DNA of 64,000 nt from Magnetovibrio sp. (GTDB lineage: Bacteria; Pseudomonadota; Alphaproteobacteria; Rhodospirillales; Casp-alpha2). Below the pieces are notes generated by a model, which was not told where the DNA came from, searched no databases, and saw only the letters and a program-made list of their open reading frames with translations. This document shows, piece after piece, positions 34,277-50,364 of this stretch. The translations under genes and the position numbers were made by a program. The stretch covers positions 129,594 through 193,593 of the forward strand of contig NZFO01000021.1 in assembly GCA_002690705.1 (NCBI GenBank), in the 5' to 3' direction. Each line of letters opens with the position of its first letter. Position 1 is the first letter of the stretch.

Positions 34277-34279
34277 AGC

Positions 34280-34708
34280 TCAGCGATCCTCTTTTCTCGT
34301 GTGTGTGCGCACAGGACGAGATGAGCAACAAAAATCTCCCAATCTATCCTCCTCTATTTTCCCTTGAACAAACAAACACAAATGTTTGGCGACCATTTTT
34401 GCCATCCTTAGACGTTCCAAAGACGCCACGTGAGTCGGTTCGTCAAGAATAAGGTTGTGATGGTAGACCAACTCTCGGCATGTTTCCCGGCAAGCATTAA
34501 AACTGGGATCACCTTTTGCGCCTTGTCGATGCAGTGCTAACAGCCGGAACCCCTCGCGTTTTGATTTCGTTGGCTTTTCTCCGCGCGCTCCATTCCAATT
34601 TTCAAGAATACGCTCGCCCCAGCCTAACATTGCTATGGCACCAATTACCGCATTTTCATGGGCACTGGCGGATTCGATACCATTCAAAATAGTTTCAAAT
34701 GGGGTCAT
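34280..34708 (-). CDS. Conserved sHdr-linked protein of unknown function
   Basis: A 142-residue soluble, mostly helical protein with four cysteines including FNACRETCRELVYHHN (CxxxC near residues 72-76) and a CC pair near residue 125. I do not recognise a family. Its ATG overlaps the shdrB2 stop and its end is 3 bases from lbpA, so it is translated with both. This close coupling suggests a role in carrying sulfur between sHdr and LbpA or in assembling the complex; that is inference from context. Confidence 0.75.
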   Translation of the reverse strand: MTPFETILNGIESASAHENAVIGAIAMLGWGERILENWNGARGEKPTKSKREGFRLLALHRQGAKGDPSFNACRETCRELVYHHNLILDEPTHVASLERLRMAKMVAKHLCLFVQGKIEEDRLGDFCCSSRPVRTHTRKEDR

Positions 34709-35634
34709 GCAACGCCCTTTTCTTTAAAATATTTTAGAGAATCGGAGACGTTTTCATGGATACCAACCTTGCGTGCACTCAAACCAAGAGCCAATCCCAG
34801 TAATTGAGTAAAGTAAACGATCTTAGAATTTGTTTTTTTTCCAAACCGTGTTTCAGCCCTAATCTGATGCATTTCGAGACCAGAATGGCAAGTGGGGCAT
34901 TCGGTCGCAATAACGTCTGCCCCGCACTCATCGGCCGCTTCCAAGAGGTTCGTTACCAGCTTTGTCGAAGTGTCAGAATCCGATAGTGTGTGAGCTCCGC
35001 CACAGCAGGCTGTCTTGAGCGGGTAGTCAACAATTTCAGCCCCCGCAGCCTGTAACAAATCGTCCATGAAATGAGGTTTTAAAGTTGACTCCGAACCGGG
35101 ACCTTGATCCTTTTCAGGGAAGATATGGCGGGGCCTTGTGTACATGCAACCATAATAATTGGCTACCTTAATCCCTTTCAAAGAGTTTTTTACCCGCTCT
35201 TTAATGCCATCCTCACCAATAGAGCGTTTAATCCAGTCTAAAGCGTGAATCGTCTCGATACTTCCCGGTTTGTAGGCGTCATGCCCAGCCTTTTTTGAGA
35301 GCCGTTCAGTTACTGCGACATTCTCAGGATCATTCTCTAAGTCATATTCGGCTTTCTTTAAATTATGATAACAGCCGTTGCACGGTGCCATTACAGTATC
35401 AAAGCCCATATCTTCACTGGCTATAGACATGACGCGCGATGACAAATACGTCTGAATCTTGGGGTCAATATTTTTAACTTCCATGGCTCCGCAGCAATTC
35501 CAGTCCTTTACATCTACCAGTTCTAACCCCAGCTTTTTCCCGAGGGCTCGGGTCGAACGATCATAGGCGTGACCAGTGCCCTCCAATGCACAACCAGGAT
35601 AATATGCAACACGCTTTAAATTTTTATCACTCAC
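34705..35634 (-). CDS. shdrB2: sHdrB2, heterodisulfide reductase B-like subunit
   Basis: A 309-residue protein with two CCG domains that hold noncubane iron-sulfur clusters as in HdrB. Motifs are YYPGCALEG, WNCCGAMEV, APCNGCYHNL in the first half and NYYGCMY, TACCGGAH, TECPTCHSGLE in the second, so both cluster sites look complete. Start is GTG overlapping the shdrC2 stop. It is part of the cytoplasmic sHdr complex that oxidises LbpA-bound sulfur. Confidence 0.93.
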   Translation of the reverse strand: MSDKNLKRVAYYPGCALEGTGHAYDRSTRALGKKLGLELVDVKDWNCCGAMEVKNIDPKIQTYLSSRVMSIASEDMGFDTVMAPCNGCYHNLKKAEYDLENDPENVAVTERLSKKAGHDAYKPGSIETIHALDWIKRSIGEDGIKERVKNSLKGIKVANYYGCMYTRPRHIFPEKDQGPGSESTLKPHFMDDLLQAAGAEIVDYPLKTACCGGAHTLSDSDTSTKLVTNLLEAADECGADVIATECPTCHSGLEMHQIRAETRFGKKTNSKIVYFTQLLGLALGLSARKVGIHENVSDSLKYFKEKGVA

Positions 35635-36392
35635 TTAGCAGCTCCTTGATCATCACTTTCTGGACCCAACCCTAGCGCCTTACGTTTGAACAAATCACGT
35701 TCTAATACATATTCCTCGATTGCCGCTCCAGCCTTTGACCAATTTCGAGTACGTGGTCGAACAAAATTTGCCAACCCCATAGTAAACAAGAGCTTTAAAG
35801 GGAGGTGACGTATTAGACGTTTGACCAACTCCAAAAGCCAATCTTGCATTAAAGGCTGTCCTGTGCGCCGAAAGAACCCACGGATTATTCGGCTCTCCTC
35901 AATTTTTCCCGTAGCAAATATCTGCTCCGAAAATTCTTCATCAAAATGCATTGAAGGTGACTTTGGAGTATGTCCCTTGAGTTCCAGCCAATGCGATAAC
36001 GCTTTCATCACCCCCTCAGGCTGGACATCGCGAGGACAGACATAAGTGCATTTGTTGCACGAAACACACTGCCAGATAATGTCTTTGTCACGCAGCAATT
36101 CCTGCTCCATGCCCATCCGCACTAAGTAGATCCAAAACCGTGGATTGAAATCCGGATTGATCTCATTCACCGTGCATGAATTTGTACATGAACCGCATTG
36201 CCAACATCGATGAATGTTTGCCCCGCCGGGCAATGCTGCGATCTCATCTTCAATGTCTTCATTGTAATCCGTAACAACTCTGGATTCTATAAACGTACTC
36301 CAATGCCCGGACACATCGATCCCGTCAATTTCCAACTCATCATTGGTTATAATGTTTTCTGGCCGAATGAGATTTTGTTCATGTATGGGCAT
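35631..36392 (-). CDS. shdrC2: sHdrC2, 4Fe-4S ferredoxin-like subunit
   Basis: A 253-residue HdrC-like protein with two 4Fe-4S motifs: Cys63, 66, 69, 73 (CWQCGSCTNSC) and Cys109, 112, 115, 119-120 region (CVSCNKCTYVCP). The chain is longer than archaeal HdrC, with about 60 residues before the first motif and a helical C-terminal part. It transfers electrons within the sHdr complex. Ten bases separate it from the upstream unknown subunit gene. Confidence 0.92.
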   Translation of the reverse strand: MPIHEQNLIRPENIITNDELEIDGIDVSGHWSTFIESRVVTDYNEDIEDEIAALPGGANIHRCWQCGSCTNSCTVNEINPDFNPRFWIYLVRMGMEQELLRDKDIIWQCVSCNKCTYVCPRDVQPEGVMKALSHWLELKGHTPKSPSMHFDEEFSEQIFATGKIEESRIIRGFFRRTGQPLMQDWLLELVKRLIRHLPLKLLFTMGLANFVRPRTRNWSKAGAAIEEYVLERDLFKRKALGLGPESDDQGAAK

Positions 36393-36402
36393 TGAAATAA
36401 GC

Positions 36403-37266
36403 TCAATTCATCGCTTCTAAATCATTTAATTTAAGTCTCTTTCCATTGGCAAGTTTTACTCGAGTGCGACCACTGTCCGGATCAACTCCATCAAGTCCGA
36501 GCATTCGGCGCGTAAATTCCAAAGGATCTAATTCTGATGAAAAGTCCGTGCGAAGGAAGCTACCCCCCTGCTCGGAGATATAATCTGCATATATCTGCGC
36601 TAACAACAGGTCCGCATAAATCAGCACATCCCGAAAAACTCCATTGGAAGAGAGAAACTGGCTAAGCTCCTCCCGAAGGACCAGATGGGTCTCAAAAGTA
36701 TCGCGAACATCTAACGTTATGTGATCAATATCCTTCGCATACCAAATTTCACGAATAACCCCGGTATTTGACGATTGGTCCCAAACCCAACGGGTCATTA
36801 AGGGGTACTTCTCCATGTTGCTGAAGTGCAGTAATTCTGCAGCTAAATCACGAACCCAACGATGCAATTTATCCTCAGAAAACTGTCCACAAAAGGCCCG
36901 GATCCGATCATCAACATGCCTTTTATCCCCACCTTCCGCTAACAAAGCAACAACTGAATCTTTTAATCGCGAAAAATCGTCAGTTTCAATCCAACTGCCT
37001 ATACGCCGCCGCACAGGCGCTATGAACGCGCACAACCCAAGAAAGGTCTCTTTATCCAAGTTAGCAATTGCACTGGGGCTCAACACTTGCTCAAAGATTG
37101 ATTTTTTAAACTTAACCGCCGTGACAAATGCTTCAATGCCCCCATGGCTGTCACTAGAATTTAGCACCTTCTCGAAGCTTGAAGTGATACGAGGACCACT
37201 TAATTCAAGTACCGGACGAACCTCATCAGGAATGCGAACATCAGTTGATTTTGAAAATCCAAACAA
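36403..37266 (-). CDS. sHdr-cluster hypothetical protein between shdrA and shdrC2
   Basis: About 287 residues, soluble, without cysteine motifs or a family I recognise. In other sHdr loci a gene of unknown function also occupies the place between shdrA and shdrC2, so it is probably a constant part of the system. Start choice matters: TTG 37299 overlaps shdrA, but TTG 37266 has GGAG seven bases upstream (within the end of shdrA) and gives FGFSKSTDVRIPDE as the N terminus; I prefer it. The part HFSNMEKYPLMTRWVWDQSSN and IREIWYAKDIDHITLDVRD look conserved. Confidence 0.82.
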   Translation of the reverse strand: MFGFSKSTDVRIPDEVRPVLELSGPRITSSFEKVLNSSDSHGGIEAFVTAVKFKKSIFEQVLSPSAIANLDKETFLGLCAFIAPVRRRIGSWIETDDFSRLKDSVVALLAEGGDKRHVDDRIRAFCGQFSEDKLHRWVRDLAAELLHFSNMEKYPLMTRWVWDQSSNTGVIREIWYAKDIDHITLDVRDTFETHLVLREELSQFLSSNGVFRDVLIYADLLLAQIYADYISEQGGSFLRTDFSSELDPLEFTRRMLGLDGVDPDSGRTRVKLANGKRLKLNDLEAMN

Positions 37267-37270
37267 ATCT

Positions 37271-38320
37271 CTACTCCGCCGCCTCGGGCAACCCTTCAAC
37301 TATCGACAGCGCGGCCAAAGCTGCACCTTGGGCCTGGGCTATTGAATCATCGATAGTTTCTGGACCAGTCGCCGCACCCGCGACAAAAACTCCCTCCCGA
37401 GACGTTCGCGCAACGCCCTCGTATGTATTCTGACAGTGAATATGCCCATGTTTTTGTAACTGTACGCCAAAAGTCGATGCTATCATGACATTCTCTACAT
37501 TTGGATCCATACCAATCGCATGAACAACCAGATCAAATGGTATAGTGATCGGGCGTTTCACAAGGGTATCCTCGCCTTTTACGATTAAGCGCTCCCCATC
37601 CGATGTAACCTCGGCTATGCGGGCTTTTATGTACTTGACCTTAAATTCCTCCTGAGAGCGCCAATAATACAAATCTTCGTAAAGCCCAAAAGTACGGATA
37701 TCCATGTAATAGATATAGACGTGGCAGTCTGGCAGTTCCTCTCGAATTTCCATCGCCATATTAGAGGATACAGTACAGCATATTTTAGAGCACCACTCCC
37801 TCCCAATCTGACGATCACGTGAACCCACACATAATAAAATCGCAACACGTCTGGGTTTTCTCCCATCAGAAGGACACCGGACGCCTTGGCCACTCGACAT
37901 CATCTGCTCGACTTGGGTCGTGGTTACAACGTCCTGAAAGGTGCCAAATCCCCATTCTGGCTTATTTACGGAGTCAAAATGCGTGAATCCTGTACAAAGA
38001 ATAGCCGCCGCTGCCTCGACGGTATCTTCGTTACTTAACTTTGCTGTAAAATGGCCCGGCTGACCGTCAAACGCAGCAACACTCAGCCCAGTCCGGATCT
38101 CTACATTTTCACTGGCTTCCACCCGAGACACCATTCCACCGATTGCGTCCTTCGCCCACTCACCGGTGGGCACTAGCTTTGCGTATCCAGATAGAATCGG
38201 TGCGCCCCCAAGTTGATTTTCTTTTTCGACTAAAATGACCTTCTGTCCTACGGCCAATAGAGCTTGTGCGGCAGCAAGACCCGACGGCCCACCGCCAACA
38301 ACTAAAATAGGTTTTGACAT
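37271..38320 (-). CDS. shdrA: sHdrA, FAD-binding HdrA-like subunit
   Basis: A 349-residue flavoprotein. The dinucleotide-binding motif PILVVGGGPSGLAAAQAL begins at residue 4, and a second conserved end GVFVAGAATGPETIDDSIAQAQGAA closes the FAD fold. A cysteine cluster (VGSRDRQIGREWCSKICC, about residues 165-185) matches the iron-sulfur region of HdrA. It lacks the extra ferredoxin domains of methanogen HdrA, as usual for sHdr. ATG 38320 is chosen; the longer frame to 38401 overlaps shdrB1. Confidence 0.93.
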   Translation of the reverse strand: MSKPILVVGGGPSGLAAAQALLAVGQKVILVEKENQLGGAPILSGYAKLVPTGEWAKDAIGGMVSRVEASENVEIRTGLSVAAFDGQPGHFTAKLSNEDTVEAAAAILCTGFTHFDSVNKPEWGFGTFQDVVTTTQVEQMMSSGQGVRCPSDGRKPRRVAILLCVGSRDRQIGREWCSKICCTVSSNMAMEIREELPDCHVYIYYMDIRTFGLYEDLYYWRSQEEFKVKYIKARIAEVTSDGERLIVKGEDTLVKRPITIPFDLVVHAIGMDPNVENVMIASTFGVQLQKHGHIHCQNTYEGVARTSREGVFVAGAATGPETIDDSIAQAQGAALAALSIVEGLPEAAE

Positions 38321-38330
38321 AATATTACCT

Positions 38331-39680
38331 TCAGCCCACTGCCGGTTTTTGAAATCCTGGCCCAGATGTAATTCTAAGTCTTGGATCATAGAGGCGCTCA
38401 CCTTTACCCTGCTTGACCTCTTCTAAGTAAGCTTCGAATTCGGATTTTGCTTTTTCCCAATCGACACCAATCTTCTCGAGAAGGCCCTCAAATGCAGATG
38501 CATGCCAGTGAAGTTGCACAATCTTGTAGGGGTCCGCCCCACAGGCTATTGCAGCAAACTGGCAATCGGCCATCACAGGTAATGAGACATCTTTACCAAC
38601 AGCTTGCCCAATCCACTGGTTTTTGTCGAGAGTAGTGATACAACCTGTGTCATGGCCGATCATTACGTCAGCTTTCGCCTCTTCGACGGCAACTTTAATT
38701 TTACGGTCAATTGCAAAAGAACGCGTAAACTCGCGTTCGGAAATTATATGCCGGAAACCAAACCCACAACAATCATACCACGTAGAGTAGTCGATTACTT
38801 GTGCGCCCAGCGCTTCTATAAGACCGGTGGATACAGCAACTCTATTTCCCTCTAAAATCTCATCATCATAGATCGCATCCTCAGGAATCATTTTATAGAC
38901 ATGGCAAGCTGGATGGATGGTTGCCCGAACCCCACTCACATCAATTTCACGCATAGCGTTGATTTCTGGTCGCATCACATGTAGCCATTCTGAGTAATGA
39001 ACAATCTCTTCAGGAATTAGAAGCTTTCCATCAACGAGACGGCCAAGCTTGTCTAAAACCTTTCGTACACGCTCACGTAATTCTGCCGAATGAAGCAGGA
39101 ACCCGCGAATTTCTTTATAATTGCCGAAAGATGTTCCGCAGTGCACGAGTGGATAAAAATGACCATCCTCGTGTCCCTGAACTTTGCCAGATACATATGC
39201 TTGGTGGAAGTTTCTCAGAAATACAGCGGCTAAACTCTCTACATTTCCTATACCTGAACCATGGTAGTTCCAAGCTGTACACGAGGTTTGATCCGTTTCA
39301 TCCAAATAAGAAGTGCCAAGTCGGTTCTGAAGCCATAGCAATGAAGTTGGGTACCCTGGAATATTTCCACATTGGCCGCAGGACTTGTGATGCCAAAGTT
39401 GCGTAGTTGGAATTTTTTTATCCCAACCGAACAGAGTTTTGACCATCTTTGGCTGATGTGCATTCGTAATACGATGAACTGCGATCTCACCATCTTTTTC
39501 AAGCTGCCACATGATGTCACGGACATCCTCAACCCGCTCCTTATTGGTAAGCATCGACCGCTTGTCGACGCGCGCCTCAACCCAAGCTGTTGCCGCCCGA
39601 GCATCATCAGGGGACAGTTTGGCATTATTCCATTCACTACCATGCCCTGTAAGGCGCTCACCACAGTTAGAATCATTCAT
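38331..39680 (-). CDS. shdrB1: sHdrB1, heterodisulfide reductase B-like subunit
   Basis: A 449-residue HdrB-like subunit. CCG-type cluster motifs are KSCGQCGNIPGY (about residues 97-108), HPACHVYKM, WYDCCGFGF and HDTGCITTL, and a second cysteine pair lies near CQFAAIACGADP. It is larger than sHdrB2 because of an N-terminal extension and loops, as in other sHdrB1. A GGGAG site precedes the ATG. Catalytic subunit of the sHdr complex in the cytoplasm. Confidence 0.92.
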   Translation of the reverse strand: MNDSNCGERLTGHGSEWNNAKLSPDDARAATAWVEARVDKRSMLTNKERVEDVRDIMWQLEKDGEIAVHRITNAHQPKMVKTLFGWDKKIPTTQLWHHKSCGQCGNIPGYPTSLLWLQNRLGTSYLDETDQTSCTAWNYHGSGIGNVESLAAVFLRNFHQAYVSGKVQGHEDGHFYPLVHCGTSFGNYKEIRGFLLHSAELRERVRKVLDKLGRLVDGKLLIPEEIVHYSEWLHVMRPEINAMREIDVSGVRATIHPACHVYKMIPEDAIYDDEILEGNRVAVSTGLIEALGAQVIDYSTWYDCCGFGFRHIISEREFTRSFAIDRKIKVAVEEAKADVMIGHDTGCITTLDKNQWIGQAVGKDVSLPVMADCQFAAIACGADPYKIVQLHWHASAFEGLLEKIGVDWEKAKSEFEAYLEEVKQGKGERLYDPRLRITSGPGFQKPAVG

Positions 39681-39727
39681 ATTTAACTCTCCCTATCATC
39701 CCTAGCAAAAGTTGAGGTGATTAAAAT

Positions 39728-40468
39728 TTAATCGTCTTGGTCTTCAAGCCAGTCCTCATAGTCTTCACGCTTTTCATCCATAATGTCTGAAATTACATCA
39801 AACAAATTCTCGTCGATAGTTTCCAGCTGCTCAAGAACGCCAGTCATCTCCCAAATCGTGTAGAGTTCAACCGAAGTTTTCAAATTTACTTCCCAAGCGG
39901 TCTCCGTGGTATTCAACGTCGGCATGGGAATAGCTTGGCGCAGTAATTTTAATGGGGCGTCAATCTTGGCAATATTTGGCCCCCAATCTGCAAAGTGCTC
40001 GGGATTGATCATGTCCGGGGCCAACTGATTACCAGTTGAAATCAACTTTAACATCACCCTGCTAAATGGCCTAAGCACATCCTTGGCCGATTGCATGCCG
40101 TGCTTTATGGCAACTTCACGCATAATCATAACAAGGCCGCCCGGTGAATTTCCAAACGGACATCGCGCCGCGCAGGTATAACACTGGGCGCATGACCAGA
40201 TTTTTTCCTGCATTGCATCATAAATACCTTCAAGATTCTCTGTCCACAAAAGCTGAACAATCTCTCGAGGCGAAAAATCGTAATAATGTGCAGCAGGACA
40301 GGTTGCAGTGCAAATGCCGCAATTAAGGCAACCGTTCAACTCATGATCAAACCTTATATCCTTTTGGATATCCACAAACACTTCTTCAAGATCGTTGCGG
40401 TTCATTATTGGCGCTTCGGATACAGGATCGCCAATATATTTTTGAATACGAGTGGTTCCAGACTGCAC
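39728..40468 (-). CDS. shdrC1: sHdrC1, 4Fe-4S ferredoxin-like subunit
   Basis: A 246-residue HdrC-like protein. Two 4Fe-4S motifs are complete: Cys47, 50, 53, 57 (GCLNCGICTATCP) and Cys93, 96, 99, 103 (SCAQCYTCAARCP). The acidic C-terminal tail (EDWLEDQDD) is notable. Start is GTG, with AAGG about 8 bases before it. It follows dsrE by 11 bases and opens the shdr run. Confidence 0.92.
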   Translation of the reverse strand: MQSGTTRIQKYIGDPVSEAPIMNRNDLEEVFVDIQKDIRFDHELNGCLNCGICTATCPAAHYYDFSPREIVQLLWTENLEGIYDAMQEKIWSCAQCYTCAARCPFGNSPGGLVMIMREVAIKHGMQSAKDVLRPFSRVMLKLISTGNQLAPDMINPEHFADWGPNIAKIDAPLKLLRQAIPMPTLNTTETAWEVNLKTSVELYTIWEMTGVLEQLETIDENLFDVISDIMDEKREDYEDWLEDQDD

Positions 40469-40479
40469 TTTGTTACCTT

Positions 40480-40860
40480 TTAATAGGTTAAGACCCGGGT
40501 ATTATCGTCTTCCATAACCTGTTCGATCACATGGGCACCACCCACAATTCCCTCACATTCAGGGATCAAGTCGGTCTCTGTCATATCGAAAAGATCTAAA
40601 TTCGGGGAACAGCAGTAAAATTTACATCCGGCTTCGTGGGCGTCTTTTATGAAGTCATAAACAGTTTTTGGGGAGCCTTCTTTAACGACTAATTGCTCAG
40701 CCACGCCGATTTTCATTAATTGCCCCGCAGTGGCGGTACAAATAACTTCCACTTCATAATCCATAGCTGCCGCCACAGTCGCTTGAAAAAATGGCGCCCC
40801 AAGCTCCTCCCCATTACGAGGATCTGTATTCACCATTATGATGACAAGTTTTTCTGCCAA
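40480..40860 (-). CDS. DsrE-family sulfur-transfer protein
   Basis: A 126-residue DsrE-like protein (DsrE3 type) of the kind found with TusA and sHdr genes; it passes cytoplasmic sulfane sulfur between TusA and later carriers. The reactive cysteines are Cys83-Cys84 in GCKFYCCSPNLDLF. The start is TTG 40860, since no ATG precedes the first beta strand (KLVIIMVNTDP). It is followed by shdrC1 at 11 bases. Confidence 0.87.
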   Translation of the reverse strand: MAEKLVIIMVNTDPRNGEELGAPFFQATVAAAMDYEVEVICTATAGQLMKIGVAEQLVVKEGSPKTVYDFIKDAHEAGCKFYCCSPNLDLFDMTETDLIPECEGIVGGAHVIEQVMEDDNTRVLTY

Positions 40861-40966: not shown

Positions 40967-41719
40967 TCAGGCTACGTTTCCCATCCATCCCGCTCTTTGG
41001 ACCACCCCAGTCATTATTAACACAAGGGCATCCTCGATGGCTTTTTGTTTCTGCCGCAAGATTGCAAGCTCACTGCCAATATTATTTGGAGACTCATCAA
41101 ATTCCATTACGAGATCCTCAATCATTGCAACTTTTAAGCCCGGGTGGCCAGCGAAACCAAAACAATTTTCAGCCACCTGAAAAACCATCGCATTTCCCTT
41201 ATTGTCCTCCGCCAAGACCTCAGCGTGGGGAGGGACCTCAAAAGCATCCCGCATGTATGTTGCAACCGGGAATGTCTCAGGTAAATAGCCGTTTAAAGCC
41301 CTTTTGTCGGTGCGACGAGCTTCTTTCACACAAAACTGCAGCGGTGAACTTGACACCATGCCGCCACTTGCCAGCGCCAAAATTTGGGCGCCAAGTCCAA
41401 TGCCCAAAACTGATGTGCCCTGTAGCATGCAATCACGAACCAATTGGACTTCTTCTTTAAGAGTTGGCAAATCACAGCAGCCAGCCGACCCCCATGGACC
41501 ACCGCCAAGAAGAACTATACCATCGGTGAATTTTACTGTGGCGGGCAATCGGCCTTCCGACGTATGCGGACGCATATATGTAAACCCGATGGATCGACCC
41601 TCAAGATGATCTTCTATTAAACCCAAATATTCACTGTCTGTATGCTGAATAACATATAGCGAGCGTCGTTTAATAGCAAAACCAGCATGATTTCGGCCTT
41701 CAATTTCCTGCAGGCTCAC
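40967..41719 (-). CDS. Class I glutamine amidotransferase-like protein lacking the catalytic Cys
   Basis: A 250-residue protein with the class I glutaminase fold: the oxyanion strand GIVLLGGGPWGS, the nucleophile elbow VLGIGLGAQILA and the late GFAGHPG. In active enzymes the elbow reads GxCxGHQ; here residue 108 is glycine and residue 111 alanine, so the nucleophile and the following His are lost, while the distal histidine near residue 193 remains. It is therefore probably not a glutaminase, perhaps a binding or regulatory protein. Its GTG start overlaps the slpl(AB) stop (GTGA), which ties it to lipoate attachment. Confidence 0.82.
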   Translation of the reverse strand: MSLQEIEGRNHAGFAIKRRSLYVIQHTDSEYLGLIEDHLEGRSIGFTYMRPHTSEGRLPATVKFTDGIVLLGGGPWGSAGCCDLPTLKEEVQLVRDCMLQGTSVLGIGLGAQILALASGGMVSSSPLQFCVKEARRTDKRALNGYLPETFPVATYMRDAFEVPPHAEVLAEDNKGNAMVFQVAENCFGFAGHPGLKVAMIEDLVMEFDESPNNIGSELAILRQKQKAIEDALVLIMTGVVQRAGWMGNVA

Positions 41720-42780
41720 CCCGAAACAGCCTCGACGAGGACTTCCCGGATATCTTCTGGAGCCAATGTAATAGCATCAACCATTGTTTTCGCAAAAAAT
41801 CTGTCTACCGCCGCTCTCAAGTCTTTTTTCTCTACTCCTCGCAAATCCGCCTCCAAGTCGAAAATCACTCGCGGGGGGGTCACAAAAAAATCCCCCGTAA
41901 TTAAAACTTCGCGAATTCTCTGGGATGATGGCCCTTCCAATCGCACAAATACCGTAATGGTGCCACCCGATCCATGGTGACTCGCGCTCTGCGTTCCTGT
42001 CTGATCATGTAGACCATCAATACTATAGACAAATTCGTCTCTGCCAATCTCTGTATCATGAATCTCTTTTGCCCGTAGTTCTTCTATCTCACTCACCGCA
42101 CCCTCATTGATATCAATCCGAAGATATTCCGCAAAGCCCTCCAGCATATGTTTCTGGATAGTCAACAAGCTTGGTAAGTTTTCACCGATTTGAGTGCGCA
42201 ACGTGGTAACCCTTTGAGCAACATCATCGAGATTACGCTTGGCAAGTTTGGCCTGGGGCACGTTAAGAGTATTCAGCATATCTTTGGGGTTCATATCAAT
42301 TAAAAGTGTTCCTTGATAAAATAGAACGTCACCATCAAAAAAACCGCCGGTTCCACATATTTTTTGACCATTGACTTCAATGTCATTGCGCGGTCGATAT
42401 TTCGTATCAACACCAAGACGAGATAAGCCCGCAGCGGCGGCTTCGCAGATGCACTTCGCCGCTGTATTTAAATCACCAATGCCGAGATGGGCTCGCTTGA
42501 AAACCAACTCCCAACCCAATTGGCCCTCGTCAAAATATATGGCCCCTCCCCCCGTAATCCGTCGAGCAATTCCAATACTTTTTTTTCTACAATATTCGAG
42601 TTTAATTTCGCGCCTGAGATCCTGATGGAGGCCAACTAATGCCGTTGGCGGAAATCGTAAAAAGCGGATAGTATCTGGAATATCATCGGCCAGTCGACTA
42701 TCAATCAAAGCCTTATCAAAAGCGATATTATCTCGACCGCTGCGGAGCCCGGTATTAATAACGCGGAATTCGGGGGCCAT
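41716..42780 (-). CDS. slpl(AB): Lipoate-protein ligase sLpl(AB), sHdr-associated
   Basis: A 354-residue LplA-family ligase with the small LplB-like domain fused at the C terminus. The catalytic domain shows RRITGGGAIYFDEGQLGWELV (lipoate/AMP loop, split across residues 94-114), NDIEVNGQKICGTGG with the catalytic lysine, and FYQGTLLIDM. The C-terminal domain begins near residue 270 (ITVFVRLEGPSSQRIREVLITGDFF, in two strands). This form is specific to LbpA maturation, attaching octanoate or lipoate before LipS1/LipS2 sulfur insertion. It lies in the same run as lipS1-lipT-lipS2. Confidence 0.92.
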   Translation of the reverse strand: MAPEFRVINTGLRSGRDNIAFDKALIDSRLADDIPDTIRFLRFPPTALVGLHQDLRREIKLEYCRKKSIGIARRITGGGAIYFDEGQLGWELVFKRAHLGIGDLNTAAKCICEAAAAGLSRLGVDTKYRPRNDIEVNGQKICGTGGFFDGDVLFYQGTLLIDMNPKDMLNTLNVPQAKLAKRNLDDVAQRVTTLRTQIGENLPSLLTIQKHMLEGFAEYLRIDINEGAVSEIEELRAKEIHDTEIGRDEFVYSIDGLHDQTGTQSASHHGSGGTITVFVRLEGPSSQRIREVLITGDFFVTPPRVIFDLEADLRGVEKKDLRAAVDRFFAKTMVDAITLAPEDIREVLVEAVSG

Positions 42781-42898: not shown

Positions 42899-43819
42899 TT
42901 AATTCGACCTTTTTCGTTGTCGTAGAAGAGTTACTCCGGAAATAAAAAAATTTAACGCGAATAATAGGAAAATTATCAGTGCTAATTTAGTTGTTAATAC
43001 TCGGTGATCATGGGTCCATCGACCCATATGAATTGGATAACCAATGACGAAATGTCCACTTATCAGAAAGTTGCGGGGATAGGTTGCAAACCACGTAGCT
43101 TGGCGAAGTTGTAACACAGGTGTAGAAATATGACCCGATTCGAACAATATCTGTGTGGTCGGGCCTCGCACCTTTTCACCGATGAAGTGAGCAGTATATG
43201 GGCCATAATCTACGTCGATGGTACTCTTTGTCCCAGATTTAAATCGTTTTAGTATATCTGCCATGCTTAATATTCTTCTGCTATCGTGGTCACGAAAGAT
43301 TGCTGCGTGTTGCACGTCAACAACCTCCCATTGATTATTTTTTGGATTATAGAATTCTGCGACAGAATGACCCTCGCCGGGCGGCCAGCCGGACGGCAGC
43401 AAGTGCCACTCTCTAGCTTTAAGTCTTTGCGACCAAGCCGCAATGATAAAAAGCATCGTTGCATCGGTGCACAAAAGTGTTTTGACTTGAGCCTGAGCCA
43501 ACCACCTTTCGAAGGTTATATTCTCATACGAAGGCATACCGCGGTCTTTACCTAAAGGGCTATATTCGCGAATGGTGTTTAGGGTGGCCCTAAGCCCAGC
43601 ATCAGTTGTGATGTCGGCCCAATCAAGTTCGAGATTTCCATTTAAACGCCCATCCTCGAAGGCGGGAGTGAAATTTCCGTGGTCATTAACAAGCTCCACC
43701 AATTGTAGTGGCAACGGAATAAAACGTAAGTAGTAGCGGTCGAACCAAACATGCAGTCCACTAACAACCAAAATGACAAGTGTAACGCTGAGGGTACGAC
43801 TTGAAGTTAAAAGTGTCAT
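42899..43819 (-). CDS. Membrane-anchored transglutaminase-fold protein
   Basis: A protein of about 306 residues with membrane segments at both ends (about residues 8-24 and 280-300) and a soluble part between, probably periplasmic. The central region has a transglutaminase-like cysteine-histidine-aspartate triad: Cys117 in TLLCTDATML, His151 in PGEGHSVAEFYNP and Asp168 in QWEVVDVQHA. ATG 43819 is preferred over TTG 43825. It is transcribed between lipS2 and slpl(AB), with gaps of 55 and 118 bases. I know no sHdr partner of this fold; it may be a passenger gene or an unrecognised member of the system. Confidence 0.72.
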   Translation of the reverse strand: MTLLTSSRTLSVTLVILVVSGLHVWFDRYYLRFIPLPLQLVELVNDHGNFTPAFEDGRLNGNLELDWADITTDAGLRATLNTIREYSPLGKDRGMPSYENITFERWLAQAQVKTLLCTDATMLFIIAAWSQRLKAREWHLLPSGWPPGEGHSVAEFYNPKNNQWEVVDVQHAAIFRDHDSRRILSMADILKRFKSGTKSTIDVDYGPYTAHFIGEKVRGPTTQILFESGHISTPVLQLRQATWFATYPRNFLISGHFVIGYPIHMGRWTHDHRVLTTKLALIIFLLFALNFFISGVTLLRQRKRSN

Positions 43820-43874
43820 AATCAATTAAAGCTCGGCAGATTCTCATACAGTCTTAGTGATGAATTAATTACCA

Positions 43875-45146
43875 TCAAAGCTCCTTCGACGGGAGCGACA
43901 AATATGACTTTAACTGTCCTCTTATTTTTTTTAAATCACTCTTTTGCGGCTGAAAGGGATAGCTTGCAATATTGCTTGGGGGAGAGTCCCCATAGGGCCG
44001 ATCACATGCTGAAATATCATCAGCAAACTTTCCCGGGCAACCCGAAGTGCGGAAGGCAATTCCTGCATTGATGATAGTGTCGAGCTCTCTTTGGCCTAGG
44101 CCAAAATCACTTACTCGACCATGCTCATCAAATGCCATCTGCTCAACCCGCACCCCCGCGTAATCGATAAGATATCGCGCCAGCTGAACACGGCGCCACT
44201 GATCACGTGGCGTCGCAGGAAGATGGTCCATTAACGAACCTTTCTCTGGAAAAAAACAAAACATATGTGAATGTCCACCCATATCGACTAATTCCTGGAC
44301 TAGACTAAGAACCTCGTACTCTGTCTCACCCATGCCGACGATAATATGCGCACCAAATTTTTTCTCCCCAAAAATGTCTCTTGCGTCGTTTAAAATTTCC
44401 CAATATTTTCGCCACGAGTGTGGCGAATTGACCCCTCTCCCTCTGGTACGGTCGAATAAATAGGGCGTGGCCGCGTCAAGAGCGACTGTAAAAATATCAG
44501 CCCCTGTATCTCTCAGCAACTCAACATCTTTCCGATTCATCGTGGTTGGGTTTGATAGGATTGAAATTGGAATTTGGTCCGCCGGTACTCGTTCTGTCCA
44601 CTTTTTTAAAACCGTAACTGTATCTGCATCTGAATTGGGGTGTGTGATCATCGAGATGCACATGCGATGAAAAGAGGAATTTTCAGGATCACGCGCGACA
44701 ATATCAACCAACTCCTCCATAGGTACAGCCGGCCAATCAACGCGGATAAAATTCCTATCAGCATAATCGCGGTCGGCTTCCCGATGACGAGCGAGGCCGC
44801 AGTATGCGCAATTAGCGCGGCAGCCTTCTGGATAAGTTAACAACAAATTTAAACACCGCGTGCACGAGCAACGATGCATATTTCCATTCATAATACCAAG
44901 AGTGATAGCCGCCGCTGTCGATAACTGCACGTATTCCGGTGACCGCATGTGCGGAGTTAAAATATTGTAGTTCGGCTTGTAAATGCCTCCGGGAGCTATG
45001 CCGTTTGCCTTTACACGACCTCCGTTACGTGACGCTTTGTCTGCCTCTTGCGGCGGTCTAGGGGCCATTTTTTCAAAAGCATTGAAATCTATACCCGCTT
45101 GACTCTTATCAGATGGAGTTCGACCTTCCGGTTTCATACACGTCAT
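43875..45146 (-). CDS. lipS2: LipS2, radical SAM lipoate-assembly enzyme
   Basis: A 423-residue radical SAM protein of the LipS2 type; with LipS1 it inserts the two sulfur atoms into octanoyl-LbpA. The radical SAM cluster ligands are Cys109, Cys113 and Cys116 (GCRANCAYC), and an auxiliary cluster probably uses Cys93, Cys95 and Cys98 (RCSCTRC), the sacrificial-type cluster expected of lipoyl synthases. The GMGETEYEV segment is a SAM-binding feature. The N-terminal about 55 residues are low in structure. Located in a lipS1-lipT-lipS2 order. Confidence 0.92.
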   Translation of the reverse strand: MTCMKPEGRTPSDKSQAGIDFNAFEKMAPRPPQEADKASRNGGRVKANGIAPGGIYKPNYNILTPHMRSPEYVQLSTAAAITLGIMNGNMHRCSCTRCLNLLLTYPEGCRANCAYCGLARHREADRDYADRNFIRVDWPAVPMEELVDIVARDPENSSFHRMCISMITHPNSDADTVTVLKKWTERVPADQIPISILSNPTTMNRKDVELLRDTGADIFTVALDAATPYLFDRTRGRGVNSPHSWRKYWEILNDARDIFGEKKFGAHIIVGMGETEYEVLSLVQELVDMGGHSHMFCFFPEKGSLMDHLPATPRDQWRRVQLARYLIDYAGVRVEQMAFDEHGRVSDFGLGQRELDTIINAGIAFRTSGCPGKFADDISACDRPYGDSPPSNIASYPFQPQKSDLKKIRGQLKSYLSLPSKEL

Positions 45147-45179: not shown

Positions 45180-46253
45180 TTACGTTGCCCAGTATTCGTT
45201 ATAGGCAATCCATGTTCGGCGTAGCTCACTCGGTATCGGCGTGCGATTTCCTGAATGAAAGCCCAATATTTCCTGTCTACGCCTTAACGCACGGTTCATA
45301 GAAATGTCAAATATATCACTTAACTCATCGACGTAATCCTCACCAGCACTGCAATCTCCCCCGACCGATGAGGCCGCAGCCTCTCCAGCTAATTCCCCAG
45401 AAATAACCGCCGATGGGATTCCAGCCCCAGTAATTGGATTCGCAAGCCCTGCAGCGTCACCTGCAAGAAATACTGCGACCTCCCCCAATCGACCGCAAGC
45501 CTTAACCATTCCCCCAACGGGGATTTCTCCACCCGTATGGCCTAGGACAGCATTGCCAATCCGTCGTTCACGAAGTAACCGCTTCCGCATGGTTTCCAGT
45601 AATGGTTTCAAATGCCCACGAGCAGCGGGCGAGACACCAACCCCAATATTTGCTCTGTCTCCTTTAGGAAACATCCAGCCGTAGCCTCCAACAATATCTG
45701 CACTGAGGAAAATATCTGTTCCTCGGTGTGGCTCCAAAAGCGGTACTGTCATCTGGCGCGCAGCAACAAGAGAGGAATTAGAGTGGCCAATGGCATAACC
45801 GACCGCGGAGCGAGGACCATCTGCTCCAATAATGACCTTAGGGTATACGCGTTTCCCTGATGACAATAATGCCGTGCCGTCCGGTGCTATACTGCGGAGA
45901 ACAAGACCAAACTGGCAGTCCGCGCCCTTATGCCGCGCATTGGCAATTAAGTCCCGATCAAATTCGCCCCTATCAATCATTTGGCCACGAAAATCATCGC
46001 GGCTATCCGGCAGCCCATTCTCGACGAACGTAGTCATTTCTCTTATCGACTGCCGTCGAACCACCTCTGACGTCTTTATTTCCTGTCCCATAAGTGCCGG
46101 TACAAATTCAGCACATTGAACCGGCTCTCCGGGGCGTTTACGTCGATCAATTGCAAGAACACTTAAATTAGCTTCGGCAGCTTTCCTCGAAGCACAACTT
46201 CCGGCCGGGCCAAGACCAATAACGAGCACATCAACGACTTGAGAATTATTCAT
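45180..46253 (-). CDS. lipT: LipT, geranylgeranyl-reductase-like FAD oxidoreductase
   Basis: A 357-residue flavoprotein with the GGR/FixC-like fold: DVLVIGLGPAGSCASRKAAEA binds FAD at the N terminus, VIGADGPRSAVG and FLAGDAAGLANPITGAGIP are the second and third FAD motifs, and GGYGWMFPKGDRANIGVG is a family strand. LipT is thought to supply electrons to the LipS1/LipS2 reaction. ATG 46253 is chosen; a frame open to 46415 overlaps lipS1 and has no domain. It is flanked by lipS1 and lipS2. Confidence 0.92.
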   Translation of the reverse strand: MNNSQVVDVLVIGLGPAGSCASRKAAEANLSVLAIDRRKRPGEPVQCAEFVPALMGQEIKTSEVVRRQSIREMTTFVENGLPDSRDDFRGQMIDRGEFDRDLIANARHKGADCQFGLVLRSIAPDGTALLSSGKRVYPKVIIGADGPRSAVGYAIGHSNSSLVAARQMTVPLLEPHRGTDIFLSADIVGGYGWMFPKGDRANIGVGVSPAARGHLKPLLETMRKRLLRERRIGNAVLGHTGGEIPVGGMVKACGRLGEVAVFLAGDAAGLANPITGAGIPSAVISGELAGEAAASSVGGDCSAGEDYVDELSDIFDISMNRALRRRQEILGFHSGNRTPIPSELRRTWIAYNEYWAT

Positions 46254-46281
46254 GTGCCATACCCCCTGAACATCAAGACAC

Positions 46282-47289
46282 TTACCTACCAAGTTTAACT
46301 GAGCAGCACGCATGCTCTTGATGATAAGGCCGGCCGATAGCTTTTGCCAAAGCAACCATCCCGTCAGCGGGAAAAGCAATGCCATCCAGCCCGGCCAATA
46401 CGGCATAAGAGTCAATGACTCTCCGGTTCATACCTGCGGGCCGGGCGCATCCCAACAAAACCTCCTTATCAATAAGCCGACGACGGGCCTCAATAAACAC
46501 CTCTCCCACAGCAATAGTTGACGGCGTTATGAAGGTTCCGTTTTTTGCATAAAATGGCATAACAACGACAAGAACAAGAGCGTGTATATCGTACCTTCCG
46601 CATATATCCAAGGCAGTTGGCTCGCCCAAAATTTCGCCGTAGTGCAGACCAATAACTATATGTGGGACTATCTCCATCGAAGTTGAGCAAAGAGCAGACA
46701 ATGTAGCTTCAAAGTCGTCAACAGACCTATCCAAATGGTACACATCTCTGATGGTTGCTTCAGAACCAATAACATCCATCATTGCGGTATCGACACCTGC
46801 AGATTCCATAAGCTTTGCTCTTGTCTCGTCGAGCAATGCAGAATGGATAGCAATCCGGAGATGCGGAAACTCGTGCTTTAATCTCTCAATGGTTGGGAAA
46901 TAGCGGTCATAGGCGATTTCATTACGCCGATTTGAACCTCCAGACAATAAAAAGCCCTGCAAATTTTGCAAAGTAATCAAATCTCTTACCTTTTGTTCCA
47001 GGATTTCCGGCGATGTTGCAGGTATCATTGGATCAAGTATATTTGCCTGACAATGATCACACATCAGCGCACATGCCCCAGCAGTAATTGAGAAAGCGGG
47101 AAAACTGTTCTTTGAACAGCCACCCAGTTCCTCAGAAGAAAATTCCTTGAAAGTTGGTGTTGAAAACCGAATTGGCCTGGCAGCAAAATCACCGACAGAT
47201 CTCTGGAGAGAGTCTACAAGCCCCTTATCGAAAGATGCAGTCTCAAGTGGTTCAATTCCCGCTGCGGCGTCAAGCCAAATAGCACTCAT
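46282..47289 (-). CDS. lipS1: LipS1, radical SAM lipoate-assembly enzyme
   Basis: A 335-residue radical SAM protein of the LipS1 type. The cluster ligands are Cys73, Cys77 and Cys80 (CALMCDHC), within GACALMCDHCQANILDPM; a nearby Cys58 (GGCSK) and the C-terminal cysteines (GCARP, ACC near the end) may bind an auxiliary cluster. It inserts the first sulfur into the octanoyl chain. Twenty-eight bases separate it from lipT. The gene starts 32 bases after the HDAC-like gene, so the upstream triad probably shares its transcript. Confidence 0.92.
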   Translation of the reverse strand: MSAIWLDAAAGIEPLETASFDKGLVDSLQRSVGDFAARPIRFSTPTFKEFSSEELGGCSKNSFPAFSITAGACALMCDHCQANILDPMIPATSPEILEQKVRDLITLQNLQGFLLSGGSNRRNEIAYDRYFPTIERLKHEFPHLRIAIHSALLDETRAKLMESAGVDTAMMDVIGSEATIRDVYHLDRSVDDFEATLSALCSTSMEIVPHIVIGLHYGEILGEPTALDICGRYDIHALVLVVVMPFYAKNGTFITPSTIAVGEVFIEARRRLIDKEVLLGCARPAGMNRRVIDSYAVLAGLDGIAFPADGMVALAKAIGRPYHQEHACCSVKLGR

Positions 47290-47321: not shown

Positions 47322-48425
47322 TCACATCAGGGCAAGATCCTTAATTTCCGTCCTAATTGGCAAGTCCTCAGTCTCATCAGCGATTGAATTTAGCCAATTA
47401 GGATTAATATCCTCCTCGTCAACGAGATCAGAATCAAGGCTATGTAAAATATTAAGTGCCGAGGAAGTCATCGAGTCATAAACATCATAGTTAGCAAGAG
47501 ATGCCCATAAGCCAGCCCAGCATCGGATCACGGTCCAAGGGTTATAACCTCCCCCGCCCAAGACGATCGTCCTTGGCGCGATATCACCTATTGCGGAGAC
47601 TGCCGACCAGAGAGCAGTATTTGTGAGCTCCATTTTGGATAGAGGGTCCCCAGCTAACCCGTCCGCACCACACGTAACAACAACCGCATCCGGTGCAAAT
47701 TTTTCTGCGAGTGGCAAAACTATTTCATCAATTAAAAAATTTAGCTCTGAGGCGTGGAAGCCTCCCGGCACGGGAAAATTCCAAATATTGTCTGATGAGT
47801 TGCTCTCAACGCCGGAATATGGCCAGCGGCTTTTCTCATGAATGGATACCGTGGCTACGCGGGGATCATTAATAAAAGCTGCCTCCACACCATCACCATG
47901 GTGAGCATCCAAATCTAAATAAAAAACTCGAGGCACCCCCATATCGAGGAGACGTAATATAGCTAATACAGGATCATTAAAGTAACAAAATCCACTCGCA
48001 CGATTGGGTCGGCCATGATGTGTGCCCCCAGCTGGATTATAAGCACACCCACCGCCCAACACCCACTCTGCAGCATATATTGATCCACCGCAGGTCATTG
48101 CACCTCTCTCGAACATTCCCGAAAAAACCGGGTTCTCTATTGTTCCTAATCCATAAATCTCTCGGGTCTTGGCTCCACTTTTCCCGGCTTTATCGACCTT
48201 TCTCACAGCATCGATATAAGCTCTCGAATGATAGCGCCCCAAGTCTTTAGGACTCGCGGTAGGACTGTCAACGTAGTTCTCTGCGTTAAACCATCCCATT
48301 TGACGACATAAATCAGTAACAGCACCCACTCTTGGAATTGATAGGGGATGGTTCTTGCCGTATGCCACTTTCCCGTATATCTCACTCCCAATAAAAATTG
48401 CACCTTGGTGACTGTTTGTTATCAT
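47322..48425 (-). CDS. Histone-deacetylase-family (AcuC-like) amidohydrolase
   Basis: A 367-residue arginase/deacetylase-fold protein. Zinc ligands are Asp173, His175 (DLDAHHGDGV) and the later Asp in CGADGLAGDPL; the catalytic His136-His137 pair is in GGTHHGRP and the tyrosine-containing GGGGYNPWTVIRCW end is intact, so it should be active. ATG 48425 overlaps the diiron oxygenase stop (ATGA). AcuC-like proteins deacetylate acetyl-CoA synthetase or small amides; polyamine amidohydrolases share the fold. Its position between an oxygenase pair and lipS1 suggests a small-molecule or LbpA-linked substrate, which is inference. Confidence 0.9.
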   Translation of the reverse strand: MITNSHQGAIFIGSEIYGKVAYGKNHPLSIPRVGAVTDLCRQMGWFNAENYVDSPTASPKDLGRYHSRAYIDAVRKVDKAGKSGAKTREIYGLGTIENPVFSGMFERGAMTCGGSIYAAEWVLGGGCAYNPAGGTHHGRPNRASGFCYFNDPVLAILRLLDMGVPRVFYLDLDAHHGDGVEAAFINDPRVATVSIHEKSRWPYSGVESNSSDNIWNFPVPGGFHASELNFLIDEIVLPLAEKFAPDAVVVTCGADGLAGDPLSKMELTNTALWSAVSAIGDIAPRTIVLGGGGYNPWTVIRCWAGLWASLANYDVYDSMTSSALNILHSLDSDLVDEEDINPNWLNSIADETEDLPIRTEIKDLALM

Positions 48426-49294
48426 TTCGCACCGCCAGTCGCCCTGCAGCTGACGGACAACCATCCGTCACGACTCACAAGGGAAAGTGCTGACCTCGCA
48501 CATTCCGCTGCCAACCTTTTCCGCGTTACGTCGTTTTTCAAAAGCCGCGCGATACTAGTTGGATTAGATAATCCAGCTCGTTTTAAACTCTCAGCACTAG
48601 GGTACATGGTTGCATCAAGGAATAAATTGAGGAGCCATTGGAGTGTTCGCGAGAAGAGCCAACGCCTTTGCGAGCTCATTCCGGACAATCGCCTCGCCAG
48701 AAACTGACGCGCAGCTGCTATATGGCGGGCTTCTTCACGATGATGAAAAGCTAGAACCTCCTCAGCGAGGGGACAAACGGTCTCTTTTTGGCTGTGTATC
48801 AGCCGGAGGGCTCGGGTTGCAAAATTATCAGTTACGGTCTCACCAATGTACGCCATCGCCCAAAACTCTGCCGAGTCAATTTTAAGCTTTTTTGCCACAG
48901 ATGTTAGAATGCTTGTTCCCTCCAATTGTGGGCGAATACCATCTCCCGCACGGTCAATCATCTCTAAAAACATTAAACTGTGGCCGCACTCTTCACGAAC
49001 CTCCTGTAGCATAACCCGCGCTTCAACGGGCTCTAAGCTCAACAACCCAGCCTCAGTGACCCGGTGTATTAAAAGTCCCTCCAGCCAGAGGCCTGCCGCA
49101 CACAGACGGGTAAACTCTGCCCGGCTTAACTTCAGAAACTCCTCGTCATCAAAAAGTGAATTAAGTTCGCAACCCAAAAGCAAGCTCCGGGGTAACCACG
49201 GTAATCCCGAGTCCACTGAGGTCCACTTTATACTCGTCAAGGGGTCTCGATAGGGCCGACCGTGCTTTGTTATTCTATCCAATACAGCGCTCAT
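48422..49294 (-). CDS. AurF-type diiron oxygenase-like protein
   Basis: A 290-residue ferritin-like protein with ligands in the pattern of p-aminobenzoate N-oxygenase AurF: Glu72 (WLEGLL), Glu102 and His105 (EECGHS), Glu152 (IGETVT), then His184, Glu188 and His191 (HHREEARH), the HxxxExxH end of that family. The C-terminal about 85 residues add a basic helical part. Family members oxidise amines or C-H bonds with molecular oxygen. It overlaps the flavin monooxygenase gene upstream and the deacetylase gene downstream by 4 bases each, a strong sign that the three act together. Confidence 0.78.
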   Translation of the reverse strand: MSAVLDRITKHGRPYRDPLTSIKWTSVDSGLPWLPRSLLLGCELNSLFDDEEFLKLSRAEFTRLCAAGLWLEGLLIHRVTEAGLLSLEPVEARVMLQEVREECGHSLMFLEMIDRAGDGIRPQLEGTSILTSVAKKLKIDSAEFWAMAYIGETVTDNFATRALRLIHSQKETVCPLAEEVLAFHHREEARHIAAARQFLARRLSGMSSQRRWLFSRTLQWLLNLFLDATMYPSAESLKRAGLSNPTSIARLLKNDVTRKRLAAECARSALSLVSRDGWLSVSCRATGGAK

Positions 49295-50364
49295 TCAGCT
49301 GCTTCTCCGACGGATAATGTAAGCGGGGACACTTTGATTTTAGGCATGACTTCACACATTATAAGATCTAGAGAACGTGAAATTTCAGTTGCGCTGAGGT
49401 CTCCTCCGCCCATCACCAAAGACACTCGATCCACCCCAAATTCATTCAATGTCGCCAAGCGTCTTAAAAGATGTTCGGGGCTTCCAACGCAAGCAAGGCC
49501 CAATGTCTCCAAAATATTGAGATTCAAAAGACCCTGCAGCATAGGAGTTATCCAACCCAGTTTTCTATAGTGCTCATAACCAGCAACCTGCTTTACCATC
49601 ATGGTCCGAGTTACATCAATAAGTCTCTGGTAGGCCCATTTTATGCCAGGTTCAGCTCTTTTGCGAGCCACCTCATGGTCTTCATCACAATAGGCAGCTA
49701 TTGTGTACGAAATTCGGCCTTTCGGATGAGCAGCACGGTAGCGCTTTAAATCAGCCTTGATCATCGGCCATGGCTTAAATGGCCCCGTCAAGACCCCTAA
49801 TTTTAAGTGAGCTGCCAATTCAAAACTCTCTGGACTGACAGCAGCCATCCAACCTTCAAGAAGTCGACTCGAAGGCTTTGGGTTTAGAACGAATTCCTGA
49901 CCATTACGATGGTAAACTCCTGTTCTCAACAAATAACGCAATGTGCTCAAACGATCGCAAAACATCTCACGCGTTTCCTCTGGTTTTATTCCAAATCCAT
50001 CAAGTTCAGTTTTTGTCACCCCGCGCCCAACGCCCCACATCACGCGGCCGCCAGACAAAACATCCAATGTTGCTAATCTCTCCGCGACCCTTACGGTATC
50101 ATGAACTGGAAGGGGTACAATTGCGAGCCCTAAGCGAATTGAAGAGGTTTCACGGGCAACAGCGGCTAAAAGTAAATCTGGAGCAGAGCTAATGCTGTAG
50201 TCCCCGAGAAAGTGGTGTTCAGGAAGCCACAAAGCCCCTACTCCGAAACTATCTGCGGTCTTCGAAACCGAAATTAAATCATCATAAACACTAGCTTCTG
50301 AGGGTTGTGCCCCCCCCAATGAAGCCGGCGGTCGAGCGAGCTCAAGGAACAGATCAACTTCCAT
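49291..50364 (-). CDS. Luciferase-like (LLM) flavin-dependent monooxygenase
   Basis: A 357-residue FMN- or F420-dependent monooxygenase of the bacterial-luciferase family. Family segments are ALWLPEHHF (about residues 44-52), LGLAIVPLPVHDTVRVAERLATLDVLSGGR with WGVGRGV, and the C-terminal LGLACVGSPEHLLRRLATLNEFGVDRVSL, each shortened here. The WLPEHHF motif is that of luciferase-type monooxygenases that use reduced flavin. It begins the minus-strand run that ends at the sox terminator, starting opposite soxW. Substrates in the family include alkanesulfonates and dimethyl sulfide, but nothing here proves a sulfur substrate. Confidence 0.88.
   Translation of the reverse strand: MEVDLFLELARPPASLGGAQPSEASVYDDLISVSKTADSFGVGALWLPEHHFLGDYSISSAPDLLLAAVARETSSIRLGLAIVPLPVHDTVRVAERLATLDVLSGGRVMWGVGRGVTKTELDGFGIKPEETREMFCDRLSTLRYLLRTGVYHRNGQEFVLNPKPSSRLLEGWMAAVSPESFELAAHLKLGVLTGPFKPWPMIKADLKRYRAAHPKGRISYTIAAYCDEDHEVARKRAEPGIKWAYQRLIDVTRTMMVKQVAGYEHYRKLGWITPMLQGLLNLNILETLGLACVGSPEHLLRRLATLNEFGVDRVSLVMGGGDLSATEISRSLDLIMCEVMPKIKVSPLTLSVGEAAE

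Follow-up and report, generated by a model that had tools for sequence, protein, structure and literature searches.

The window analysed here is the 64,000-nucleotide stretch at positions 129,594 to 193,593 of contig NZFO01000021.1 from Magnetovibrio sp. (assembly GCA_002690705.1). Within it, genes for a luciferase-like monooxygenase (LLM), an AurF-type diiron protein and a zinc amidohydrolase of the histone deacetylase (HDAC) fold run directly into a lipoate-assembly (lip) operon and an sHdr sulfur-oxidation operon. Comparison across genomes divides these three genes into two units, the HDAC gene going with the lip operon and the LLM and AurF genes travelling together, and their neighbourhood tie to the sHdr and lipoate genes is not accidental.

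The locus

The genes at the locus, in the order in which they are read, are as follows.

49291..50364, minus strand: LLM, 357 amino acids; PF00296, EHHF and GPFKPW motifs
48422..49294, minus strand: AurF-type diiron protein, 290 amino acids; PF11583; 4-base overlap with the LLM gene
47322..48425, minus strand: predicted HDAC-fold zinc amidohydrolase of the lip-linked kind, 367 amino acids; PF00850; 4-base overlap with the AurF gene
46282..47289, minus strand: LipS1, radical-SAM lipoyl synthase subunit; NF053742, E=7.6e-54, 183 bits (cut-off 230), and synteny
45180..46415, minus strand: LipT, FAD oxidoreductase; longest open reading frame (ORF), the real start being internal
43875..45146, minus strand: LipS2, radical-SAM lipoyl synthase subunit; NF053743, E=2.7e-55, 188 bits (cut-off 270)
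42899..43825, minus strand: protein of unknown family, 308 amino acids, inserted between lipS2 and the sLpl gene
41716..42780, minus strand: sLpl(AB), lipoate/octanoate:protein ligase; profile matches
40967..41719, minus strand: LipX, GATase fold without the nucleophile Cys; profile match and alignment
33836..40860, minus strand: DsrE3, sHdrC1-B1-A-H-C2-B2, a small hypothetical protein and LbpA, comprising the sHdr operon and the lipoate-binding target (putative labels)

The coordinates bear out an earlier note on this DNA, which described three genes overlapping by 4 bases each and a 32-base gap to lipS1 (47322 to 47289). For the HDAC gene the ATG at 48425 was chosen as the start; this internal ATG gives the 4-base overlap, the longest ORF beginning at 48464. 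LipS1 and LipS2 fall under their NCBIfam equivalog cut-offs (E about 1e-54), so their names rest on best match and synteny. Together with the ligase gene they share one cluster with shdr and lbpA, as expected of an sLpl(AB)-LipS1/S2 assembly system. The gene run lipS1-lipT-lipS2-slpl(AB)-lipX beside shdr and lbpA is common to the window and the lip operon described in the available part of Tanabe et al. 2023 (PMC10332631); the window differs by an HDAC gene upstream of lipS1 and by the LLM-AurF pair. The main text of that paper mentions neither "histone deacetylase" nor "deacetylase", and the terms "luciferase", "monooxygenase" and "deacetyl" do not occur in the 2018 eLife paper PMC6067878. 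No description of these genes was found in the open literature, supplements and subscription papers lying outside the scope of the search.

Protein families and structures

The HDAC-fold protein matches PF00850 at 227 bits (gathering threshold 27.9; E=3e-67), and its structural model, with a predicted local distance difference test score (pLDDT) of 83.7, aligns with Aquifex HDLP at a Z score of 44.8 over 359 residues with a root-mean-square deviation (rmsd) of 2.3. The deacetylase zinc site had been reported as intact, and the alignment agrees, H136, H137, D171, D173, H175, D255 and Y294 being invariant in 23/23 lip-linked HDACs, the window's included. Six of these (H136, H137, D173, H175, D255 and Y294) supply the classical zinc deacylase set of a His-His pair, Asp/His/Asp ligands and a catalytic Tyr, with catalytic and zinc roles that we assume to carry over from HDLP and human HDACs. 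Family, fold, zinc and catalytic residues are common to the window protein and to HDLP of Aquifex aeolicus and the classical bacterial deacylases, going by the available part of the survey PMC11532494, whereas its 32% identity to HDLP in the structural alignment, its operon context and Thr135, which stands where HDLP has Met just before the His pair, set it apart. Thr135 is not lip-specific, since Thr is found at that site in 22 of 28 unlinked paralogues (Gln in the rest) and one lip-linked row has Met. No sequence feature was found that decides the acyl preference of the HDAC.

With HDLP and the class I HDACs as its nearest solved relatives, for which acetyl-lysine is the usual substrate, the protein might be an ordinary AcuC-like lysine deacetylase that regulates a lip or sHdr enzyme and has no role with octanoate or lipoate. 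This explanation is considered unlikely, though it has a real chance. No lysine acetyltransferase was recognised nearby, among neighbours that were labelled where homologous to the window and otherwise mostly unscanned, and the conserved partner of the gene is the lipS1 operon, whose own product is an acyl-lysine.

In a tree of 43 HDACs, built after 11 of 54 rows had been removed as near-copies, the 20 paralogues unlinked to lipS1 form one side of a 100/100 branch. The unlinked kind is also represented in the window's own genome, by a second HDAC gene (G000 C9:70392-71498, L133; 49% identical) that provides a natural control beside the lip-linked HDAC.

The AurF-type protein matches PF11583 at 104 bits (gathering threshold 29.6; E=1e-29). 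Its seven diiron ligands (E72, E102, H105, E152, H184, E188 and H191), also listed as intact by the earlier note, show no variation across the 27 rows of the AurF alignment, one of which is the window protein. The model (pLDDT 87.5) aligns best with CmlI (Z 19.6, 263 residues aligned, rmsd 3.4), followed by AurF structures (Z 17.3-18.3) and R2lox (Z 16.0-17.6). Since CmlI and AurF score best with R2lox close behind, the fold is ferritin-like, and AurF and CmlI, judged from the model, are the likeliest nearest relatives but not the sole ones. The window protein shares PF11583, the ferritin-like fold and the ligand set with the AurF/CmlI N-oxygenases; on the other hand, identity to them is 12-18%, R2lox and ribonucleotide reductase R2 also reach Z 16-18, and no N-oxygenase context was recognised.

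The LLM matches PF00296 at 154.6 bits (gathering threshold 27.9; E=5e-45), and its two best PDB matches are deposited as alkanal monooxygenases, the best being 8cbb (E=2.7e-21). With bacterial luciferase and the alkanal monooxygenases it has in common PF00296 and the EHHF motif, which we take to be luciferase-like. It differs from luciferase-type LLMs in having a motif of its own, GPFKPW, and in falling below the cut-off of every NCBIfam LLM model among the matches listed (25 of 30). The top NCBIfam match among them is a secondary-metabolite LLM subfamily, likewise below cut-off. Two assignments were rejected, as an alkanesulfonate (SsuD) monooxygenase (24.2 bits, cut-off 518.2; TIGR03565) and as an NtaA/DmoA organosulfur enzyme (24.3 bits, cut-off 279.7; TIGR03860). 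Row L047 of the LLM alignment is a wrong-strand frame and was disregarded; the match in G214, the genome of Sulfuriferula multivorans TTN (L029) with AurF, LLM and LipS1, crosses one TGA, and the ORF at L045 has 350 amino acids.

Occurrence and gene order

The HDAC gene was followed through 44 LipS1 loci, the window's included, several of which come from close relatives so that the counts are not independent. It lies upstream of lipS1 in 22, directly in 19 and with soxT between in three (L107-L109). In those three, genes for sulfur import (soxT), the deacylase and lipoate assembly stand in one run. Presence of the HDAC gene follows gene order, at 22/30 loci with LipS1-(LipT)-LipS2 and 0/13 with LipS1-sLpl, the order at one locus being out of view. 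It also tracks LipX, at 17/21 loci with LipX in view and 1/17 without, while 6/44 loci end too early to tell and the view of L129 stops inside lipS2. The gene is missing at five loci where AurF directly precedes lipS1 (L015, L016, L019, L131 and L132; no gene was seen after lipS1 at L016, and the upstream AurF fragment at L132 scored under the limit of the 44-locus labelling), at four loci of the window's class (L111-L114), and at the 13 loci ordered LipS1-sLpl-LipT-LipS2 (L068, L117-L127 and L129), although L127 is too short upstream to judge. Half of the HDAC loci (11 of 22) belong to genomes that give no match to the AurF profile, and therefore the partner of the HDAC gene is lip rather than AurF. 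The HDAC gene is a frequent but non-universal member of the lip operon, and the single triad proposed earlier does not stand. A triad acting as one unit was rejected, because the HDAC gene accompanies lipS1 in AurF-less genomes and is missing at some AurF-lipS1 loci.

For the second unit, one genome from each of 84,980 species was scanned with two patterns made from five AurF sequences, including the window's. The scan returned 29 AurF loci, and more distant relatives may have been missed. The genomes of 27 loci were tested for partner genes; the other two loci, L012 and L019, belong to G165 and G134 of a sample from the window's order, both of which have LipS1. An LLM relative is present in 27/27 genomes at 38-71% identity (split over two contigs in G206), LipS1 in 26/27 (partial in G210, on two contigs in G220) and sHdrB1 in 24/27, with the partner genes often at unlinked loci. 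The sole genome lacking LipS1, G203 (L017), is a metagenome bin whose contig ends soon after the HDAC gene. The sHdrB1 misses are G212 and G215, in which LipS1 lies beside LbpA, and G202 (L016), in which the contig ends at LipS1; G202 is apparently G098 of the order sample.

The order sample comprises 199 genomes, with a strong AurF match (E<1e-70) in five, LipS1 in six and an overlap of five. The exceptions are G026, with LipS1 and no AurF, and G147, with a weak AurF match (27% identity) and no LipS1. The LLM (E<=1e-40) occurs in 5/185 order genomes, exactly the five with strong AurF. In a class sample of 367 genomes, matches to the AurF profile came from the window's genome and, weakly, from two LipS1-negative genomes (G386 and G483, E about 1e-26); the weak matches were handled, like G147, as another subfamily. 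LipS1 occurs in 10/367. The LipS1 background in the phylum sample is 8/388, the window's genome included. A chance neighbourhood was rejected at Fisher p=2e-9 for the order sample and p=4e-33 for 26/27 against 8/388, both values being inflated by kinship. The earlier note had held that the link to sHdr and lip genes would be accidental if the genes were widespread without them or if the neighbours differed in close relatives; this AurF protein is not widespread without lip genes, gene order in close relatives is mostly kept, and the link is upheld. AurF and LLM nearly imply LipS1 and LipS1 does not imply AurF, so the pair is an accessory coupled to LipS1 genomes.

The order LLM-AurF-(HDAC)-LipS1 is kept in window-like loci, mostly labelled Rhodospirillaceae, Magnetovibrio or Alphaproteobacteria. 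At L033, L035 and L039 (Burkholderiales, Bordetella and Proteobacteria) AurF and LLM adjoin the LbpA end of the shdr operon, and at the other distant loci AurF, either by itself or together with LLM, is remote from shdr as far as the DNA viewed extends. The one lone AurF locus scanned, L031 (Sulfuriferula), has housekeeping neighbours (P-II, NAD synthase, succinyl-CoA ligase and thymidylate synthase) that offer no chemical clue. LipS1 loci or their genomes show every combination of the two units, namely both, HDAC without AurF, AurF without HDAC at the locus, and neither at the locus. Alternative or additive routes would give this pattern, and so would independent accessories. Near lipS1 in the HDAC-only genome G026 (L052) there is an opposite-strand LLM-family gene, 31% identical over 121 residues, which was not counted.

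The earlier note also suggested a branch that prepares an organosulfur substrate. Here LLM and AurF would attack a sulfide, sulfone or sulfonate and pass the sulfur to sHdr, with the HDAC trimming an amide. Known LLM enzymes include organosulfur oxygenases, the pair lies inside a sox-shdr island beside soxT and soxW, and sHdrB1 accompanies AurF in the 24 genomes noted above. A beta-type LLM does slightly better than the window's on the alkanesulfonate model (46 bits) and the SfnG model (42 bits), but both scores are far under the cut-offs. The window LLM, in turn, reaches 24 bits on the alkanesulfonate model (cut-off 518) and 24 on NtaA/DmoA (cut-off 280), the HDAC gene precedes lipS1 also where AurF is absent, and G212 and G215 have AurF, LLM, LipS1 and LbpA with no sHdrB1 match, although these genomes may be incomplete. 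On the strength of these two genomes, the pair keeps to lipoate genes a little more closely than to sHdr. Beyond gene place, nothing found speaks positively for the organosulfur branch, and it is the less likely reading, with a rather low probability.

An SDR-like gene comes after LLM in 12/16 of the beta/gamma-type genomes viewed (for example L044 8765-10718 and L033 10840-12862); it was called by PF01370 in L033 and elsewhere by clustering. Away from shdr, the LLM-SDR pair lies in several genomes near mla-type genes, which is read as mere chromosomal location. The SDR-like gene lends itself to a further explanation, in which LLM and AurF, joined by the SDR in the beta/gamma-type, would produce or alter a small molecule or cofactor, as yet undescribed, that sHdr requires and that has nothing to do with octanoate. 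A lipoyl group in modified form and the electron acceptor of sHdr are examples. AurF and CmlI are known for forming the nitro groups of natural products, and the secondary-metabolite subfamily that heads the window LLM's listed NCBIfam matches, below cut-off, points the same way. No other biosynthetic genes were seen conserved around the pair, most neighbours having been clustered rather than scanned, and this explanation is judged improbable.

A possible role in lipoate supply and removal

According to Tanabe et al. 2023 (PMC10332631), sLpl(AB) has no transferase activity and works with octanoate or lipoate only in free form, and the pathway begins with free octanoic acid. The parts of the published sLpl(AB) work that were available do not name a bacterial source of either acid. 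The earlier statement that no known lipoate step needs the three proteins was therefore too strong, since the ligase requires a free acid. Because that acid must have a source, roles for the HDAC and for the LLM/AurF pair are proposed, and with their ties to the lip genes the hydrolase and both oxygenases are concrete candidates. We infer that the two units belong to one pathway.

The locus may be an extended lipoate-assembly island that serves LbpA, the lipoyl protein of the sHdr sulfur-oxidation complex. In the first unit, the HDAC would act as a zinc-dependent deoctanoylase or delipoylase on LbpA or lipoyl domains. Its action would either set free octanoate or lipoate that sLpl(AB) could use or correct LbpA that carries the wrong acyl group. 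A zinc-dependent hydrolase of amides encoded within the operon itself fits this role, bacterial delipoylation being known in sirtuin form, and the HDAC as an acyl-lysine hydrolase in lipoate release or editing is put forward with moderate confidence. The precedent consists of the lipoamidases CobB and SrtN, which remove lipoyl groups from lysine; unlike the window HDAC they are NAD-dependent sirtuins and not of the zinc HDAC fold, and they act on PDH, KDH and GCV, not on LbpA (available part of PMC5596343). In the second unit, LLM and AurF would form an O2-dependent pair that oxidises a medium-chain precursor by alkanal-monooxygenase chemistry, yielding a free C8 acid to be loaded by sLpl(AB) or an acid that is recycled. 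This role was derived from the alkanal monooxygenases among the LLM's best matches and from the diiron partner, and oxidation of a C8 precursor to the acid is suggested weakly. The combined account of an acyl-lysine hydrolase and a free-acid route, for which we infer all substrates and the use of O2, is tentative and, taken as a whole, possible rather than probable.

Several observations weigh against this account of a lipoate island. An ordinary thioesterase, or uptake, could supply the free octanoate instead, and the acyl preference of the HDAC is an assumption. The HDAC gene is not seen upstream of lipS1 in 22/44 loci, and there both the supply of free acid and any editing would have to do without it. 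Rooting the tree on a very distant outgroup leaves the 20 lip-linked HDAC rows without a clade of their own, and the L052 HDAC lies nearest the paralogues. The AurF profile finds nothing in 9/10 LipS1 genomes of the class sample, where up to six first-look candidates were scored per genome and absence is less sure than in the phylum sample, in which all were scored; there it finds nothing in the seven other LipS1 genomes. Against the PDB, phmmer gives the AurF-type protein E=0.22, and a beta-type LLM has its top score, under the cut-off, on an F420-dependent subfamily whose chemistry is not that of luciferase. Neither the LLM nor the AurF-type protein is close to a characterised enzyme, so that the octanoate step is guesswork based on fold and gene context.

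In its more specific form, with a dedicated zinc HDAC-fold eraser for the lipoyl arm of LbpA and an O2-dependent LLM/diiron route to the C8 acid independent of LipB and acyl carrier protein (ACP), the units being alternative or additive, the proposal is doubtful. Were it true, a zinc-type delipoylase would, so far as the literature found shows, be a novelty among bacterial HDACs, and it would provide the sulfur pathway with an off switch at its cofactor. Neither "lipoyl" nor "octanoyl" occurs in the main text of PMC11532494, a survey of bacterial deacylases. More broadly, the association suggests unrecognised steps in lipoate supply or removal.

Other genes of the lip operon

LipX has been published as a putative glutamine amidotransferase. 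At the position of the GATase-elbow Cys the alignment has Gly in 16/17 rows, with one gene represented twice, and Glu in the remaining row. This Cys is the nucleophile of the elbow motif, and LipX, which lacks it, is probably no active amidotransferase. The 308-residue protein encoded between lipS2 and the sLpl gene (42899-43825, minus strand) has no Pfam or NCBIfam match and no labelled homologue in the other 43 lip loci; by eye only, it looks transglutaminase-like, with membrane segments.

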